Notes under the pieces: generated by a model
What the model was told of the DNA's origin: nothing
The model's database searches: none
Seen by the model: the letters and a program-made list of their open reading frames with translations, nothing else
From: Malonomonas rubra
GTDB lineage: Bacteria > Desulfobacterota > Desulfuromonadia > Desulfuromonadales > Geopsychrobacteraceae
Direction of reading: 5' to 3'
Assembly (NCBI RefSeq): GCF_003247215.1
Contig: NZ_QKAP01000015.1
Span: 1-58,165 of the forward strand
DNA length: 58,165 bases
Program-made: the position numbers and the translations under genes
Shown here: positions 49,885 through 58,011 of the stretch, piece after piece
Numbering within the stretch: the first letter of the stretch is position 1
How the letters are laid out: each line of letters begins with the position of its first letter

Positions 49885-50352
49885 CTACAAATAACCATCA
49901 ACGGTTAAAAATTCAGTGTTTAACAAGGAAAAAATCTCCCTCTCTCGCGCTTCCATCTGCAACATTTGCTCTTCGGTGCCTCGCTCATGATCGTAGCCGA
50001 GCAGATGGAGAATTCCATGCAGCAGTAAAAATACCAGCTCATGCTCAAAGGGAATTCCGGCCTCGGCCGCATCCGCGGCCGCCCTCTCAGCAGAGATCAC
50101 CACGTCACCAAGCAACAACGGCTGCACGCCACTGCCATCCCCCTCCTGCATGGCGAAGGAGATAACATTAGTCGGACGATCACGATCCAAATAATCGCGG
50201 TTGATCACCTGAATTCCAGCGTTATCGAGAATCAGAATCGACAATTCCGCCTCAGGAAATCCCGAGACGCTTAAGATCTTCTGGGCTATCTTCCGTAGCG
50301 GTCGCTTCAGGACCTTTTGTTTCCCCTGCTGATTCTCGATCTGTATCCTCAT
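49885..50352 (-). CDS. ybeY: Endoribonuclease YbeY (rRNA maturation)
   Basis: A ~155-residue metalloprotein. The zinc-binding site is HGILHLLGYDHE (three His). ATG 50352 is chosen because it starts MRIQIENQQGKQ; upstream of it the frame is only the reverse reading of the 7TM-HD gene's tail. It overlaps that gene by 101 nt, which is unusually long. YbeY acts in 16S rRNA 3'-end processing and ribosome quality control. Confidence 0.93.
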   Translation of the reverse strand: MRIQIENQQGKQKVLKRPLRKIAQKILSVSGFPEAELSILILDNAGIQVINRDYLDRDRPTNVISFAMQEGDGSGVQPLLLGDVVISAERAAADAAEAGIPFEHELVFLLLHGILHLLGYDHERGTEEQMLQMEAREREIFSLLNTEFLTVDGYL

Positions 50353-52672
50353 CTTGATCCTTTTTCTCTTCAATTGCAGAAGACTTCTCGCCAGCCTGTT
50401 CCTTTTCGATTTTTTCCCGCACAATATGTACCGGCTCGGGATAATCGACCCGGTGATGGAACGATCCCGCCAGCACCCGGTTAAAACTCTTCGCAATTAG
50501 GTGCAGGTCCTTTAGGGTCAACTCACACTCATCCAGTTGACCATCAATGAAGATATTGTTGATCAGCTTCTGCACCATCCCCTGGATACGCGCCGGAGTC
50601 GGTTCCTGCAGAGTGCGACTGGCCGCCTCAATGGCATCCGCCAGCATGATCAGCGCCGCTTCACGGGTCTGCGGCTTCGGCCCCGGATAGCGATAGTCAC
50701 GTTCATCCGGTTGTGGCATATCGGCTTCGGCCAGATTTTTCGCCCGATCATAGAAAAATTTGATCAGGGATGTCCCATGGTGCTGCTGAATAATATCAAC
50801 CAACTCCGGGCCTAGCTTATGCTCCTTCGCCATCTCGACTCCGTCCTTCAAATGCGACATTAGAATCAGGGCGCTCATCGACGGAGCGAGCTTGTCATGC
50901 TTATTGCGCTGGCGACCGCCATTTTCAATAAAATAAAGCGGTTTTTTGATTTTGCCGATGTCATGGTAGTAGGCTGAAACCCGGGCTAGCAATGGGTTGG
51001 CATGGATCGACTCGGCCGCCGCCTCGACCAGGTTGCCAACTAGAACCGAATGGTGGTAGGTACCGGGCGCTTCAACCATCAACTGCCTCAAAATAGGCGA
51101 ATTCATGTTAGCCAGTTCGAGCAACTTGATATCGGTGGTGTATTTAAAAATCGCTTCAACCAGCGGGATGGTGCCGGTCACGAAGACGCTGCTGAGTAGG
51201 CCGCCAAACAGTCCGAAGCAGATTTTCCAGAGCAACTGCAGCTCCAAACCGTTTCCAGCCAGAAAGTGAATTCCGATTAGCACTGCCGCATTGGCAAAAC
51301 CGACCCACATCCCCGACCAATAGATGGTGGAACGCTCCTGACAATGCTGAACGCCGTGCGCTCCGACCATGCTGCTCGTCAATGCCAGCAACGCCATCGA
51401 CAGGCTATTGCCGAAGAGCACCCCGACCAGCAAAGAGCAACAGACGGAGAACAGTAGTGCCGTCTCCGCATTGAGGACAATCCGCACCAACATCGCCCCG
51501 ATAGCAAAGGGGATCGCATAGTAGTAAGCACTGGAATCGATATAAGCAAAGGTGTTGCCAAGGGCTGTCGCGATGAAAATCGAAACCTTGATTAGAATGA
51601 ACAGGGCCAACAGGGACATTGCCAGAAACAGCAGGTCGCGCGAATCAGGGCGGAACTTGCGGATATTACCCTGTGCATAAGAGTAGCCGATATAGATCAG
51701 CAATGAAATGCAGACCAGCATGCCGAACGCGGTCGGCAAACTGCGATTGTCCCGCCCGGAATCGCGTATCGCCCGCAATTTCAAAATCTGGTCAGCGGTG
51801 ACCCGCTCTCCTTCGCGGACCACCATCTCCCCCTTTTTCACCTGAAACAGCACGGGCTTGACCGCATCCCGAGCCTGCTGGCGGCGCAGCGAGGTTTCTT
51901 CTTCGTTATAGCTCAAACTGGGGCGTAACTGTTGCTGCACCAGTTTGAGCAGGGTTTGATGCTGAACTGGCGTCAGGCCGGGCATTTCGCTCATCAGCAC
52001 TTTGGCCTGCTCAAGGGCTTCGTTCAAGCCGAAGGTTCTTTCGAGCACACTGCTCGCCAACTCCTCGCCACCAGGGATTTTACGTACCAGTATCGCCTTC
52101 TTGCGATCCGCCTCGAAAACCTGCAGGTTGGCAACAATCGGACGGTCAAAGACTTTGCCCAGTAACTCACTCGCCTGGTGGGGAATCTGCGGATCGAGCG
52201 GCAGATCGCTCAACGCCAGATACTCCTCATCCGTCATCGGCACACCGAAATCGGACTCCAACTGCGGGAGAAACACTTCCGGTGACGGAGGATCTTCAGT
52301 ATTCCGCAACTGCAACAGCAAATGCAAACCGTTCCGGATCCGCTCAACAGCTTCCCGGCCAGCGGTAGTCTGATAGTCATAAACCGGCGGTACCGACGCC
52401 CAGGCTTCATCCCGTTTGTTCTGCGTCAGCGGAGTATCCTCAACCAGCAGTTCACGCGGCGATTTGATATCGCGTGAAGCGATCTCTCCCGGCTCATGGT
52501 AGTCAGGGATAAAGCCGCCTTTAGGGACGATAATCAGCGTTAGCAGAAACGCCACAATGAACAGTAGCCAAATCCCGAAATTCGGTTTGCGTCGGTTCCG
52601 TAATCCTTGCACCCTTGTACCGAAGGCTACGGCTCGTCTCTGCCGCACTTTTTCTTTTTCTTCTTTGGTCAT
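50252..52672 (-). CDS. 7TM-HD family phosphohydrolase (PgpH-like)
   Basis: An 806-residue membrane protein. One N-terminal helix (FGIWLLFIVAFLLTLIIVPK) leads to a ~270-residue extracytoplasmic 7TMR-HDED domain. Seven membrane helices (~310-480) and an HD phosphohydrolase domain (~500-690, with ISAYYHDIGK motif seen as VSAYYHDIGKIKKP) follow. The C-terminal ~60 residues are polar, rich in Glu, Lys and Asp, and overlap ybeY. PgpH of Firmicutes degrades c-di-AMP; the substrate here is not known. Its place between phoH and ybeY is common in this bacterial group. Confidence 0.92.
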   Translation of the reverse strand: MTKEEKEKVRQRRAVAFGTRVQGLRNRRKPNFGIWLLFIVAFLLTLIIVPKGGFIPDYHEPGEIASRDIKSPRELLVEDTPLTQNKRDEAWASVPPVYDYQTTAGREAVERIRNGLHLLLQLRNTEDPPSPEVFLPQLESDFGVPMTDEEYLALSDLPLDPQIPHQASELLGKVFDRPIVANLQVFEADRKKAILVRKIPGGEELASSVLERTFGLNEALEQAKVLMSEMPGLTPVQHQTLLKLVQQQLRPSLSYNEEETSLRRQQARDAVKPVLFQVKKGEMVVREGERVTADQILKLRAIRDSGRDNRSLPTAFGMLVCISLLIYIGYSYAQGNIRKFRPDSRDLLFLAMSLLALFILIKVSIFIATALGNTFAYIDSSAYYYAIPFAIGAMLVRIVLNAETALLFSVCCSLLVGVLFGNSLSMALLALTSSMVGAHGVQHCQERSTIYWSGMWVGFANAAVLIGIHFLAGNGLELQLLWKICFGLFGGLLSSVFVTGTIPLVEAIFKYTTDIKLLELANMNSPILRQLMVEAPGTYHHSVLVGNLVEAAAESIHANPLLARVSAYYHDIGKIKKPLYFIENGGRQRNKHDKLAPSMSALILMSHLKDGVEMAKEHKLGPELVDIIQQHHGTSLIKFFYDRAKNLAEADMPQPDERDYRYPGPKPQTREAALIMLADAIEAASRTLQEPTPARIQGMVQKLINNIFIDGQLDECELTLKDLHLIAKSFNRVLAGSFHHRVDYPEPVHIVREKIEKEQAGEKSSAIEEKKDQDEDTDRESAGETKGPEATATEDSPEDLKRLGIS

Positions 52673-52693: not shown

Positions 52694-53680
52694 TCAGCCT
52701 CCCACGCGACGATTAGGCTTCAACACCCGGCGATCAGCTGCCTGGTACGCTTTGACGATCGCCTGGACAATCGGATGACGTACCACATCGACATCAGTAA
52801 AATGATTGAAAGCAATTCCCGGCACGCCTTCTAGCACCTCAAGAGCGTGTAGCAGTCCGGAATGGGTATCCCGCGGCAGGTCGACCTGGGTGATATCGCC
52901 GGTAATGACCGCCCGGCTTCCGAAACCGAGACGGGTCAGAAACATCTTCATTTGTTCTGCAGTGGTATTTTGCGCTTCGTCAAGAATGACGAAGGCGTCG
53001 TTCAGAGTCCGGCCACGCATGAATGCCAACGGCGCCACCTCGACAACTCCGTTTTCCACCAGTTCTTTGGCCTTGTCCAGATCAACCATATCGTACAGGG
53101 CATCGTAAAGCGGGCGCAGATATGGGTTGACTTTTTCCGCCAAATCGCCTGGCAGGAAGCCGAGCTTCTCTCCCGCCTCGACTGCCGGCCTCACCAGCAT
53201 AATGCGACTGACCTCTTTGCGCATCAACGCCGCCACCCCCATCGCCATTGCTAAATACGTCTTGCCGGTTCCGGCTGGGCCAACGCCAAAAACCACGTGA
53301 TTCTGGCGGATATTGTCGATATAGGTTTTCTGTGCCAGGCTTTTCGGAGCGATGATCTTTTTCCGCGCCGAAACGAAAACGGTATCGAAAAAGATGTCCT
53401 TGAGATTGGTTGAAGAATCGGTAGAAAGGATCCGGATCGCGTAATCGATGTCAGTCGGATAGAGCGGCATCCCGCCACGCAATAAAGCACAGAGTTCCTC
53501 CAGCAGGCGATAGCCGACCTGAACCTGTGCTTGTTCCCCGGAAAGGGTGAGAACGGTCCCCTTACTGCCGAGGCGGATGCCAAGCACCTTTTCGATCAAT
53601 TTCAGGTGCTTGTTCTGCTGGCCGAACAGTTGCGCAGCCAGCGCCGCGTCGCCAACGTCAAAACGTTCGCGGGGACTCAT
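52694..53680 (-). CDS. phoH: PhoH family ATPase
   Basis: A 328-residue P-loop protein. Walker A is FGVGPAGTGKTYLAMAMGVA (~residue 133) and Walker B is AFVILDEAQNTTAEQMKMFL; an N-terminal KH-like segment (~1-90) precedes the ATPase. PhoH works with YbeY in RNA metabolism. It is the first gene of the minus-strand block phoH to lnt. Confidence 0.95.
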   Translation of the reverse strand: MSPRERFDVGDAALAAQLFGQQNKHLKLIEKVLGIRLGSKGTVLTLSGEQAQVQVGYRLLEELCALLRGGMPLYPTDIDYAIRILSTDSSTNLKDIFFDTVFVSARKKIIAPKSLAQKTYIDNIRQNHVVFGVGPAGTGKTYLAMAMGVAALMRKEVSRIMLVRPAVEAGEKLGFLPGDLAEKVNPYLRPLYDALYDMVDLDKAKELVENGVVEVAPLAFMRGRTLNDAFVILDEAQNTTAEQMKMFLTRLGFGSRAVITGDITQVDLPRDTHSGLLHALEVLEGVPGIAFNHFTDVDVVRHPIVQAIVKAYQAADRRVLKPNRRVGG

Positions 53681-53866: not shown

Positions 53867-56029
53867 TTGACATCGATATCGAGTCCACATCAACTTAAGC
53901 CAGAGACGGATCTTCTGGCTGACTTTCTCCATGAGCTGAACATTGCGCGGCGCAGCCTGACGCTCTACCCCCCCAACCACCCGCAAGTTGCAGTAACTAG
54001 TGACAAGACCCTCGAGCGACTGAGCAAGCTTCTTGACGACAGGGCATCCCTTACCTTGGGCATTGCCCCGGAGGCACTCTTCTTCGAACATCGCTGGCTT
54101 GACAAGGAGCACCCTGCCTTTCGCTCATTTGCCACGCTACTCTCCGGCCTCGGGATTGCGTCGATCAGCTTTGCCCAAAATCTCACCGAATCTGAACTTA
54201 TCCAGTTTTGCCAATTATTACACAGCGATCGGCAGACCATCGAAGAACATGGCGGGTTCAAACAGTTTTTGAACCAACAGCAGATCGAGAAAATCAGCAT
54301 CGTTCAGGTCGACTACACTGCCTTCTGCGAAAAATGCGATTCAGATTTCGAACCGGCGAATATCTCTAGTGACTTATGGGGAGATTTTCTTCAAAGTCTG
54401 CAGGAGAATATCCTCGACCTAGTACACGGAGGCGTCTATGTTGCGCCACAAACCATCGCCGACCTATTAAATCGAAAGCTGGCAAGCGGCGGCAACTCGA
54501 CATCAGCGACTGGAGCAATCGGCAACTTTGTCGAACAGCTGCTGGAAGAACATCAAACAGGGCCATATATCCCTCCGGCGAATCAACTAAATGAACTCCT
54601 CGAGCACCTTTCGCCACAATTACAGACCCAGTTTCTTGCCGGGACCTTACAGACGCTTGAGAACCATCCAGAGCTTGCGAATCAGGTTCTCTCCAAATTT
54701 TCCCCCGCGTTACTTGAAAAAGCTTCCGACCCCAACCTGCATCAACAGCTGACCAACTCCCCCCGCCTGGTCGAACTGGTCAAGCAATTTGCCGCCAATC
54801 CAGCCAAGGACAAAGCCCACACGGTTTCTGCCAATTTCGGTTCGCTGGACAAAGAGATGGTTCGCGCCCGGCTAGATGTTTTATTCAGCGAAGAACGACA
54901 CAATCTCTATCTGCCGGACAATTACCAGTCGGCGTTACAAAGCATCTTCTCCACTGACATCACCAGCGGCCTCCCGACCGATATTTGCCAAGAGTTGAAA
55001 CAGGAGCTAGAAAACCAGCCGGTAGAGGAACAATGCAGTGAGATCATTTTTGATTTTCTGCAAAATGCCGACCCCGTGGAAAATGAAGCATCCATCCAAC
55101 AGAACCTGATCGACCTTTGCCACTTCTTCCTTGATACCGGAAACTTCAGAGCATTGCGCGAGATTTATCTCAACTGGGCTACTTATTTGAACAGTGGCCG
55201 GGCAAAAGTTGATATTCTCAGTGAACGGGTGCTTGCCTGCCAGATCCAGCAAAGCTTCATTCAGGAAGTCATCAATGCCATTGACATCTGGGGCGAAGAA
55301 AAAGCCGAGTCGATCAAAAAATATATTTCCGCAGTCGGTCAACCCTACACCGAACCGGTCATCAAACAGCTCGGCCTGGCCAAACAGTTCAGCCGCCGTC
55401 GATATTGGATTGAAGTACTTGCAGCGATCGGCTCTGACGCCAACCAGTTTCTGATTGACGCCCTGAACGACGAGCGCTGGTATCTGGTTCGCAACCTGTT
55501 GACGGTCCTCCAAAAAAATCTGGCGCCGCCCGTCCTGAAAGCGATTCAGAGAGTAGCCGGGCATCCGCACCCACGGGTGCGGCAGGAGGTCATCCGCATC
55601 CTCCTGGACTGCAACCCAGCGACCGCCAACCGTATGCTCGCAAGAGAGCTGTCCAACCCGAACCGGGATGTTCAGCTCGGTGCGGTGGAACTTGCCGGGC
55701 TAAGCAACGCAGTTGATATCATCAATATGCTGCACGAAAAATTATTGGCAGACATTGAGGATCATGAGGCAACTCAGGAGATTTTGCAGGCAATGGCCCG
55801 CATCGGCCATGACAGCAGCCTCCAGCTGCTCAAGAAATTGTTGGCGAGAAAGGGCTTGTTCACCCCAAAACCGATCAAGCAGCTGCACTTCGATATCATC
55901 CGGAGCATTGGTAAATACCCACCGGAGAAAGCCCGTGAAGTCCTGCGTCAACTCGCAATAGAACTTCCTCGATACTATTCCAAACTTGCCGGCGAACAAC
56001 TCAGATTGCTGTCAGGGGAGTCGCCATGA
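53867..56029 (+). CDS. HEAT-repeat protein with unnamed N-terminal domain
   Basis: A 720-residue soluble protein. TTG 53867 is the likely start: an in-frame stop lies at 53849 and no ATG follows for hundreds of codons. Residues ~15-150 (LLADFLHELNIARRSLTLYP, LTLGIAPEALFFEHRWLD, NLTESELIQFCQLLHSDRQT) form a domain that I cannot name but that recurs at the N-terminus of the next gene. The middle is helical. Residues ~520-690 are HEAT/PBS-type repeats (HPHPRVRQEVIRILLDCNPA, NPNRDVQLGAVELAGL). No catalytic motif is seen, so a scaffold role is inferred. It overlaps the HD-GYP gene by ATGA, so the two are co-translated. Confidence 0.78.
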   Translation: MTSISSPHQLKPETDLLADFLHELNIARRSLTLYPPNHPQVAVTSDKTLERLSKLLDDRASLTLGIAPEALFFEHRWLDKEHPAFRSFATLLSGLGIASISFAQNLTESELIQFCQLLHSDRQTIEEHGGFKQFLNQQQIEKISIVQVDYTAFCEKCDSDFEPANISSDLWGDFLQSLQENILDLVHGGVYVAPQTIADLLNRKLASGGNSTSATGAIGNFVEQLLEEHQTGPYIPPANQLNELLEHLSPQLQTQFLAGTLQTLENHPELANQVLSKFSPALLEKASDPNLHQQLTNSPRLVELVKQFAANPAKDKAHTVSANFGSLDKEMVRARLDVLFSEERHNLYLPDNYQSALQSIFSTDITSGLPTDICQELKQELENQPVEEQCSEIIFDFLQNADPVENEASIQQNLIDLCHFFLDTGNFRALREIYLNWATYLNSGRAKVDILSERVLACQIQQSFIQEVINAIDIWGEEKAESIKKYISAVGQPYTEPVIKQLGLAKQFSRRRYWIEVLAAIGSDANQFLIDALNDERWYLVRNLLTVLQKNLAPPVLKAIQRVAGHPHPRVRQEVIRILLDCNPATANRMLARELSNPNRDVQLGAVELAGLSNAVDIINMLHEKLLADIEDHEATQEILQAMARIGHDSSLQLLKKLLARKGLFTPKPIKQLHFDIIRSIGKYPPEKAREVLRQLAIELPRYYSKLAGEQLRLLSGESP

Positions 56030-57189
56030 GCCTTGTTTCTCAAGAACATCTGCAGAACTTTATTCGTCACCTGATTACCGCCGCAACCAATGCCGCCCTC
56101 TACAATCTGGAGCACCTACAAGTAGCCCGGCTCTGTCGCCAAGCTTTCGGTGAAGTACAAAAACTGCTCAAAAAGCACTCAGACATCACCCTGAAAATTA
56201 TTGAGAAACAACTAATTTTCGACAATCGCCCAGTAGAGCAAAGTTTGATGGTACAGCGATTGCTGTCCGCTTTGGAGCAGTACAACATCAGCCACCTGCG
56301 GATTGAACAGGAGGTTTCCAAAGAAGAGATCCTCGGTCTGATCAACACCTTGAGCAAAAGACCAGAACGTCAGATCGCGCTAGCGGGAAGTGAGCATATC
56401 CATTTCGGTCAGATTGAAGTCCGCTACCGTTCCCCCGAAAACTGCTGGCGCTCCACAGAACTATTGTTAGCAGATATCGCCAACAAAGAAGCCGACCGCT
56501 ACATGGACCTCTATCGGTCTGTGCAAAATCATCAAAAAATAGACATTGGCAATGTCAGCGAAATCGTCAACGGATTTGTCAATGCGTTCACCGAGTTCAG
56601 CGATGTCTTTCTTGCCCTTGCCCCTTTGCGCTCAATGGATGAATACACCTACACTCACTCAACCAACATCTGCATGCTGAACCTCGCTCAAGCCAAGCAG
56701 CTCGGCATCAAAGGGCACCTGCTGAACGATATCGGCATCGCCGCCATGTTGCATGATGTCGGCAAGATGTTTATCTCCCCCGGAATTTTGAGCAAGGCCA
56801 GCAGACTGACTGATGAAGAATGGCAGATCATGCAGCAGCACCCCCGCCTCGGCGCCGAATACCTGCTCAACACTCCCGGCGTACCCCGCCTAGCCGTTGT
56901 CACCGCCTATGAACACCATATGCACTACAACGGGCAGGGCTACCCGAGAACCAGACATCCACGAAAAATGAACCTCTGCTCCCACATGACAGCAATTTCG
57001 GACACCTATGATGCCATGCGAACCCAGCGCAGTTACGAAGAATCGTTAGAACTGGATCAGATCACTAATATCATGCTCGATCTGGCTGGCACCAGGCTTC
57101 ATCCCCAGTTAACCTATAACTTTCTGCACATGCTCAGCGAATTGGAAAAAGAGAACCTTGGCAGCCCACCTGCATCCGTGCCACATTAG
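56026..57189 (+). CDS. HD-GYP domain protein (c-di-GMP phosphodiesterase type)
   Basis: A 387-residue protein. Residues ~5-145 are the same unnamed domain found at the N-terminus of the preceding protein. From ~190 on is an HD-GYP domain with intact MLHDVGKMFI, QQHPRLGAEYL, EHHMHYNGQGYPR and SDTYDAMRTQRSY, so it should hydrolyse c-di-GMP or a related dinucleotide. No membrane or receiver domain is present; the HEAT protein encoded with it may bring its input. A broken relative lies just downstream. Confidence 0.92.
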   Translation: MSLVSQEHLQNFIRHLITAATNAALYNLEHLQVARLCRQAFGEVQKLLKKHSDITLKIIEKQLIFDNRPVEQSLMVQRLLSALEQYNISHLRIEQEVSKEEILGLINTLSKRPERQIALAGSEHIHFGQIEVRYRSPENCWRSTELLLADIANKEADRYMDLYRSVQNHQKIDIGNVSEIVNGFVNAFTEFSDVFLALAPLRSMDEYTYTHSTNICMLNLAQAKQLGIKGHLLNDIGIAAMLHDVGKMFISPGILSKASRLTDEEWQIMQQHPRLGAEYLLNTPGVPRLAVVTAYEHHMHYNGQGYPRTRHPRKMNLCSHMTAISDTYDAMRTQRSYEESLELDQITNIMLDLAGTRLHPQLTYNFLHMLSELEKENLGSPPASVPH

Positions 57190-57269: not shown

Positions 57270-58011
57270 TCTGGTGAACTTTCTCCATGAGTTGAGCATA
57301 ACCGCCGGTACCTGTTGACCTATCCTCCCCAACACCTGATGCTCAATAGCGCCATTGACAAGATCATCACTCGGCTTTATCCCCTCTTTGCCATTTGGGA
57401 CCAAGTTCAGCTCGGCGTCGCCCCAAATAGCTTACTTTCAAAGAGCAGTGGCTCAGAAAAGATCAGCCCAGTACTTGCGACTTCGCCAACTCCTTGGTTC
57501 GACTAGACATTGCAACGCTCCACTTTAACAACAAACCGAATAAATCCGAGTTGCTCAAGCTTTCCGACTTGTTGAATTCCGACCGGCAAACCATTCACAG
57601 AAAAGGCGGCCTTACTTCTGCAATTGAGGCATTCTCCGAACAGGGCATTTTTTTTGTCACTCTGACACCGCTGCGCGATCTCGATGGATACACTTATACC
57701 CACTCCACCAACGTCTGTGTGTTGAATATCGCTCAGGCAAAGATGCTCTTGTTTGAAGGGCAGCTGCTTTACGAAATCGGGCTTTCGGCAATGCTGCATG
57801 ACATCGGCAAATTTTTCGTTTCCACAGAAACCCTGTAGAAGGAAAACACGGTGACCGATAAAGAATGGGCCATCATTCAGCAGCACGCGCAACTTGGCGG
57901 CAAGTACCTGGTCAATACCCCTGGCATTCCAAGGCTTGCGGTCATCACCGCCTATGAACATCATAGGAGTTACAACAACGGCTTACCCGCAATTTCCTCA
58001 ACAACCTGAGT
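57270..58011 (+). pseudogene. Decayed chimera of the HEAT-gene N-terminus and HD-GYP domain
   Basis: NFLHELS then, one frame on, LLTYPPQHLMLNSAID and LGVAPNSLL correspond to FLHELNIARRSLTLYPPNHP and LGIAPEALF of the HEAT protein. KPNKSELLKLSDLLNSDRQT (~57535-57595) matches its TESELIQFCQLLHSDRQT. The sequence then jumps, in frame, to the HD-GYP gene: LTPLRDLDGYTYTHSTNVC, MLHDIGKFFVS, an in-frame TAG at 57836, then DKEWAIIQQHAQLGGKYLVN and RLAVITAYEHH. The GYP motif is destroyed. At least two frameshifts and one stop make it a pseudogene. Confidence 0.88.

Follow-up and report, generated by a model that had tools for sequence, protein, structure and literature searches.

An N-terminal domain with no convincing Pfam match is shared by a HEAT-repeat protein and an HD-GYP protein encoded by overlapping genes in Malonomonas rubra

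Two overlapping genes in a 58,165-nucleotide stretch of Malonomonas rubra DNA (contig NZ_QKAP01000015.1, hereafter the window) encode proteins, here called A and B, that start with the same homologous domain of about 120-140 residues and continue into a HEAT-repeat solenoid in A and an HD-GYP domain in B. Our reading, to which we give a probability of roughly 0.55, is that A and B are two subunits of one signalling unit, joined through this shared N-terminal domain (ND), with the HEAT part placing or gating B. Protein A (53867..56029, forward strand, 720 amino acids, TTG start) comprises the ND at about residues 11-150 (53897..54343), a low-confidence helical middle and a HEAT solenoid that occupies about residues 375-720 of the model (54989..56026), where the Pfam family HEAT_2 matches best at residues 593-661. 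Protein B, on the same strand (56026..57189, 387 amino acids), has its ND at about residues 1-130 (56029..56451), followed by a linker helix and the HD-GYP domain at about residues 205-375 (56638..57150). The joint ND profile used for the extents includes A and B as rows; the extents also draw on BLASTP and the structure model for A, and on profile-profile comparison and the model for B. The start codon of B lies on the stop codon of A in a 4-nucleotide ATGA overlap (56026..56029), from which we infer that the two genes are translationally coupled. Both open reading frames lie at the coordinates that the first-pass annotation had given, and its assignment of HEAT repeats to one protein and an HD-GYP domain to the other was borne out by Pfam (HEAT_2 in A, E 2e-11, with 44.4 bits against a cut-off of 27.7; HD_5 in B, E 1.6e-17). 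The C-terminal part of A was modelled as a helical solenoid, and its structure matches include alphaRep and HEAT chains.

The same annotation had noticed one pattern at the start of both proteins, and this resemblance holds as homology. In a direct BLASTP comparison, residues 17-190 of A align with residues 9-185 of B at 24% identity (E 2e-5). When the A-family and B-family N-domains were compared by hhalign, in alignments of 22 rows each (21 of 34 A frames or 21 of 33 B frames, in each case together with the window protein), they matched over 111 columns with a probability of 98.2% (E 5.7e-14), against at most 1.2% for 40 column shuffles, 0.2% for the reversed A domain, at most 0.5% for four other slices of A and at most 1.9% for two C-terminal slices of B. 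Modelled with AlphaFold from separate alignments, both domains have the same order of elements, alpha-alpha-beta-beta-alpha-beta-alpha with a last beta strand; the mean predicted local distance difference test score (pLDDT) is 74 for A, with 76-89 in blocks of residues 11-150, and 77 for B, with 80-94 in blocks of residues 1-110. Two columns are invariant among 35 ND rows, Y26 and H30 in B numbering, and both had been among the motif letters pointed out at first pass. Across a wider set of 189 domains, the conserved positions are a tyrosine (185/189) and a site that holds histidine (132), serine (30) or asparagine (23). A clean division of the domain into A-type and B-type was not seen, 35 of the 64 HD-linked NDs favouring the A profile by score.

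The absence of a named family for this domain, also proposed at first pass, stood up to the searches. Pfam gave nothing above cut-off on the N-termini of A and B; among 35 ND members (E up to 1) it touched 23 families, one of them through two members and the rest through one, with a best E of 0.03, and with 66 members, at E up to 0.1, it touched 17 families through one member each, with a best E of 0.0047. No match to a GAF family occurred in either set, and NCBIfam returned only a sub-cut-off match at the N-terminus of B (E 0.03). Because all Pfam and NCBIfam matches were below cut-off or confined to single members, identity with a known domain was dropped as an explanation. Searched against PDB sequences, the ND profile gave seven matches up to E 10, each of them partial and none read as a relative; the best were the designed protein Octarellin V.1 (E 6.1e-6), in short repeated pieces, and a cytochrome c555 fusion (E 0.0031). 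Fold searches with the whole models returned lists filled by HD-GYP and HEAT chains and are uninformative on the ND alone. Among the matches listed for B, only Bd1817 of Bdellovibrio extends its alignment upstream of about residue 145 (222 residues aligned, starting at residue 59; Z 18.5, root mean square deviation [rmsd] 3.6), the alignment of the GAF-HD-GYP protein PmGH (176 aligned) starting at residue 174. The N-terminal part of Bd1817 may thus resemble the second half of the modelled ND, as a lead and not as membership; by sequence, the ND profile found no match to Bd1817 in the PDB up to E 10.

The pairing of the two genes is a stable trait of the relatives. A and B are adjacent in 25 of 27 relative loci (L038-L064), one further locus starting inside B and another having a split B, and the junction is an exact 4-nucleotide overlap in 31 of 33 cases, with one 2-nucleotide gap and one broken A frame. 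At the place corresponding to the start of A the relatives have TTG, GTG or ATG, as set by a script that chose start codons near the aligned start. In eight of the 27 loci a second pair, A2-B2, lies about 3.3 kilobases downstream. Trees of A and of B were built from the 36 rows that have both proteins, and the copy-2 rows form the same two groups in either tree (L038/L043/L048/L053 and L055/L057/L060/L064), a clustering that 0 of 500 shuffles matched in either tree and from which it follows that the copies travel as pairs; in each tree the former group joins the four more distant pairs. The window itself holds a decayed second pair (57274..57997, forward strand, left edge read by eye), consisting of ND pieces in two frames and a truncated HD-GYP with a stop, with frame changes and an apparent internal deletion from about residue 137 of A2 to residue 187 of B2. 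Its best matches are to copy 2 of L038 (56% over 68 residues for the ND and 67% over 126 for the HD-GYP), and A2 and B2 have decayed together in the Malonomonas genome. The end of contig C13 of the same assembly (L008, 12500-14961) is 92% identical to this remnant over 382 aligned bases and runs on into a gene that we take to be ABC-F-like; this contig is probably either the continuation of the A-B locus or a strain variant.

Beyond the close relatives, a 35-row profile at E up to 0.001 detected the ND in 114 of the order's 118 genomes and in 110 of 297 genomes of the phylum sample (Desulfobacterota), and a diverse 66-row profile, run at E up to 1e-4, detected it in 54 of 149 genomes of Planctomycetota and 31 of 97 of Omnitrophota. 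The latter profile, run with no internal positive control, gave 0/200 in the phylum of Photobacterium and 0/149 in that of Clostridiales. One of the alignments left out three of 67 non-redundant rows, one truncated and two weaker. Within the host genome the domain was found only in A, B and the decayed second pair. In a genome of the Omnitrophota sample, one ND match (G960:C13:63639-63992) falls within an open frame of 23,632 amino acids.

We then consider the 120 loci selected by the ND, which comprise 63 from the Desulfobacterota match lists, picked by eye and 20 of them chosen partly for two matches or long frames, 54 that represent one per positive Planctomycetota genome, two from Omnitrophota and a second locus of the order. 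They hold 180 ND frames and 72 HD-GYP frames, 64 of which carry the ND. An ND-only frame stands next upstream on the same strand in 57 of these 64 and downstream in none; the 57 pairs are distributed among Desulfobacterota (41), Planctomycetota (14), Omnitrophota (1) and the extra locus of the order (1). Six of the eight HD-GYP frames with no detected ND still have an ND-only frame upstream, and HEAT_2 matches 53 of 63 upstream mates. The Planctomycetota loci, the least hand-picked, have a mate beside 14 of 19 ND-HD-GYP frames, and 33 lone ND frames besides. Selection by the ND biases these shares but would not by itself produce a one-sided gene order, and the recurrence of the two-gene arrangement in three phyla suggests a signalling unit with cooperating parts. 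A shorter type of pair was also seen in L143, L242 and other Desulfobacterota, with an ND-only protein of about 520-600 amino acids followed by an ND-HD-GYP protein of about 440-500; Malonomonas rubra has both the longer and the shorter type.

The lone ND proteins, of which 47 out of 53 frames were surveyed, show what else the domain is attached to: HEAT_2 in 21, SpoIIE in 16, a response regulator in 16, GGDEF in nine and AAA_16 in eight, with a single protein matching both PilZ and cNMP binding. Nine frames of 1419-1456 amino acids (L140, L141, L142, L191, L211, L221, L278, L281) carry a tandem double ND, and the one read in detail, that of L140, has the order GGDEF-AAA-ND-ND-HEAT, so that cyclase, ND and HEAT are found in a single chain; two single-ND frames are GGDEF-AAA-ND-HEAT. 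In the Planctomycetota loci L187, L196, L197, L215, L220 and L232 the order is ND, response regulator (REC) and SpoIIE phosphatase, which means that the ND also occurs outside the cyclic-dinucleotide enzymes.

As for the catalytic half of the pair, the HD diad and metal-ligand residues of B (H211, H243, D244, H272, H297, H298 and D326) are invariant in 22 rows, and the seven metal-ligand positions of PmGH are kept in 95-97 of 97 ND-HD-GYP rows. The GYP motif (G305, Y306, P307) is likewise invariant in the 22 rows and is retained in 92, 93 and 96 of the 97, respectively; further residues are K247, D329 and Y207-T208-Y209, the K225 equivalent being kept (within 92-97 of 97 rows) and the D308 equivalent in 85 of 97. 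Residue roles follow PMC4159591. The position of PmGH E185 is Y207 in B and is tyrosine in 85 and phenylalanine in seven of the 97 rows (Y/F 92/97), with neither aspartate nor glutamate, the carboxylate of the trinuclear E/D-T-G subgroup, among the five commonest letters. Y-T-Y is a motif of the Y/F HD-GYP subgroup, expected more likely to be binuclear (PMC4159591), and Y207 within it places B in that subgroup with an apparently complete active site. B probably hydrolyses a cyclic-dinucleotide messenger. With 20 GGDEF matches (E up to 1e-10) in its genome, the bacterium is likely to have cyclic-dinucleotide signalling, and since Geobacter sulfurreducens uses cyclic GMP-AMP (cGAMP; PMC8835794), cGAMP is a possible substrate by analogy.

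We envisage that the NDs of A and B would associate as a heterodimer or mixed oligomer, that the HEAT solenoid of A would dock a partner or target protein, and that A would thereby place or gate the hydrolysis of cyclic di-GMP (c-di-GMP) or 3',3'-cGAMP by B near the docked partner. The ND would then be a general module, which in other proteins connects a GGDEF cyclase with HEAT repeats within one chain or precedes REC-SpoIIE phosphatases. A functional pair acting through the ND is argued for by the fixed gene order, the overlap, the paired duplication and decay, the single-chain fusions and the co-divergence of the two NDs. The proposal made at first pass, that the two proteins are halves of one signalling complex, thus gains genomic evidence from order, overlap, duplication, decay and fused architectures, and a weak contribution from ND-ND co-divergence. 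More tentatively, the ND could found a 'handshake' domain, paired copies of which couple HEAT solenoids to cyclic-dinucleotide enzymes, the phosphodiesterase as a separate ND subunit and the GGDEF cyclase in a single chain with tandem NDs, and also to SpoIIE phosphatases, in a scaffolded system common to Desulfobacterota, Planctomycetota and Omnitrophota and not yet described.

The co-divergence signal deserves caution. In 90 pairs, the partial rank correlation of divergence was 0.36 between the NDs of A and B and 0.18 between the ND of A and the HD domain, with 2 of 300 bootstraps giving a difference of 0 or less. Several observations weigh against a unit joined through the ND. Among 57 diverse pairs the HEAT-HD correlation (0.34) is as strong as that of the two NDs (0.29) and would also fit a HEAT-HD contact, and in 33 within-order pairs the strongest partial correlation is HEAT-HD (0.62), the ND-ND value being not above that of HEAT with the ND of B (181 of 300 bootstraps give a difference of 0 or less) and only weakly above that of the ND of A with HD (36 of 300). 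Homologous domains may, moreover, co-diverge without contact. This mirror-tree signal is weak, positive in the 90 and 57 pairs and not decisive in the 33. In the loci, the 53 ND-only frames that were not scored as HD-GYP neighbours and the 7 of 64 ND-HD-GYP frames with no ND mate indicate that pairing is not obligate, and the loci were chosen by ND profiles begun from A and B, many by eye, which favours pairs. Lastly, the ND of REC-SpoIIE proteins is as compatible with an input role as with a docking one.

An input role is the core of the chief competing explanation, which we regard as less likely though worth keeping in view: the ND would sense a small molecule or a protein and form homodimers within each of the two proteins, A and B being co-expressed and answering the same signal with no mutual binding. 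The ND of B sits before a linker helix and a catalytic domain, the usual input position; the PmGH dimer relies on its N-terminal GAF domain and long helix (PMC4159591); the domain precedes REC-SpoIIE outputs; and the conserved tyrosine, with the H/S/N position, could form a site. Such a sensor leaves unexplained, however, why 57 of 64 ND-HD-GYP genes have an ND gene upstream in fixed order, and why one chain should carry tandem NDs. Considerably less probable is that B is mainly a protein-interaction or trigger device and not an enzyme, with A as its docking partner. By Z, B is indeed matched best by Bd1817, an HD-GYP protein described as lacking c-di-GMP hydrolysis (PMC4159591), but PmGH comes first by Foldseek E-value, and the near-complete retention of the metal ligands and of the GYP tyrosine (93/97), which Bd1817 lacks in that account, speaks for an enzyme. 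As for the resemblance between the two NDs being a matter of chance, or a homology left over with no function, it is hardly credible: the low pairwise identity lends it some colour, but the profile-profile controls rule out a chance similarity of helical N-termini, and the common predicted topology and long open frames across three phyla contradict it.

Compared with known systems, B shares with the Y/F HD-GYP phosphodiesterases the HD diad, GYP, the metal-ligand histidines and the equivalents of D305 and K225 (PMC4159591), and differs from them in having the ND, with no Pfam match, and in being encoded after an ND-HEAT gene. PmGH (4mcw) has the same layout of N-terminal regulatory domain, linker helix and HD-GYP, the HD-GYP parts superposing with Z 15.9 and rmsd 3.4, whereas its GAF domain is six-stranded (PMC4159591) and the ND is predicted as alpha-alpha-beta-beta-alpha-beta-alpha-beta. 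Unlike B, Bd1817 (3tm8, 3tmb) is described without the GYP tyrosine and without activity (PMC4159591). The 3',3'-cGAMP phosphodiesterase V-cGAP3 (5z7c) resembles B in its HD-GYP domain (E 5.2e-25, Z 11.6, rmsd 3.8, 159 aligned), and PmxA, with the same activity, also has an HD-GYP domain; PmxA was rejected as an ND carrier, its front being described as Cache-HAMP (PMC4877007). HEAT and PBS-lyase HEAT repeat proteins resemble the C-terminal half of A and most of its counterparts, and A is set apart from them by its N-terminal ND and the adjoining ND-HD-GYP gene. No account of an HD-GYP/HEAT pair was found by titles and abstract openings, and a mention deeper in the texts is possible.

A recurring question is how a given cyclic-dinucleotide phosphodiesterase comes to be linked with the pathway it serves. 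If A and B do form one complex, they would represent a phosphodiesterase of two subunits, conserved in three phyla and with its scaffold encoded by the adjacent gene, and the domain linking them would be one that lacks a Pfam description. Since cyclase and SpoIIE proteins carry the ND as well, solving one structure or testing binding once would be informative about several output systems.

A scan of the window against Rfam at gathering scores found no RNA families. The divergent neighbours of the pair are, on the reverse strand, a gene that we take to be PhoH-like (52694..53680) and one presumably encoding a PgpH-like (HDIG) protein (50252..52672), and both lie upstream of the pair in 23 of the 27 relative loci. 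PgpH-type proteins degrade cyclic di-AMP in other bacteria.

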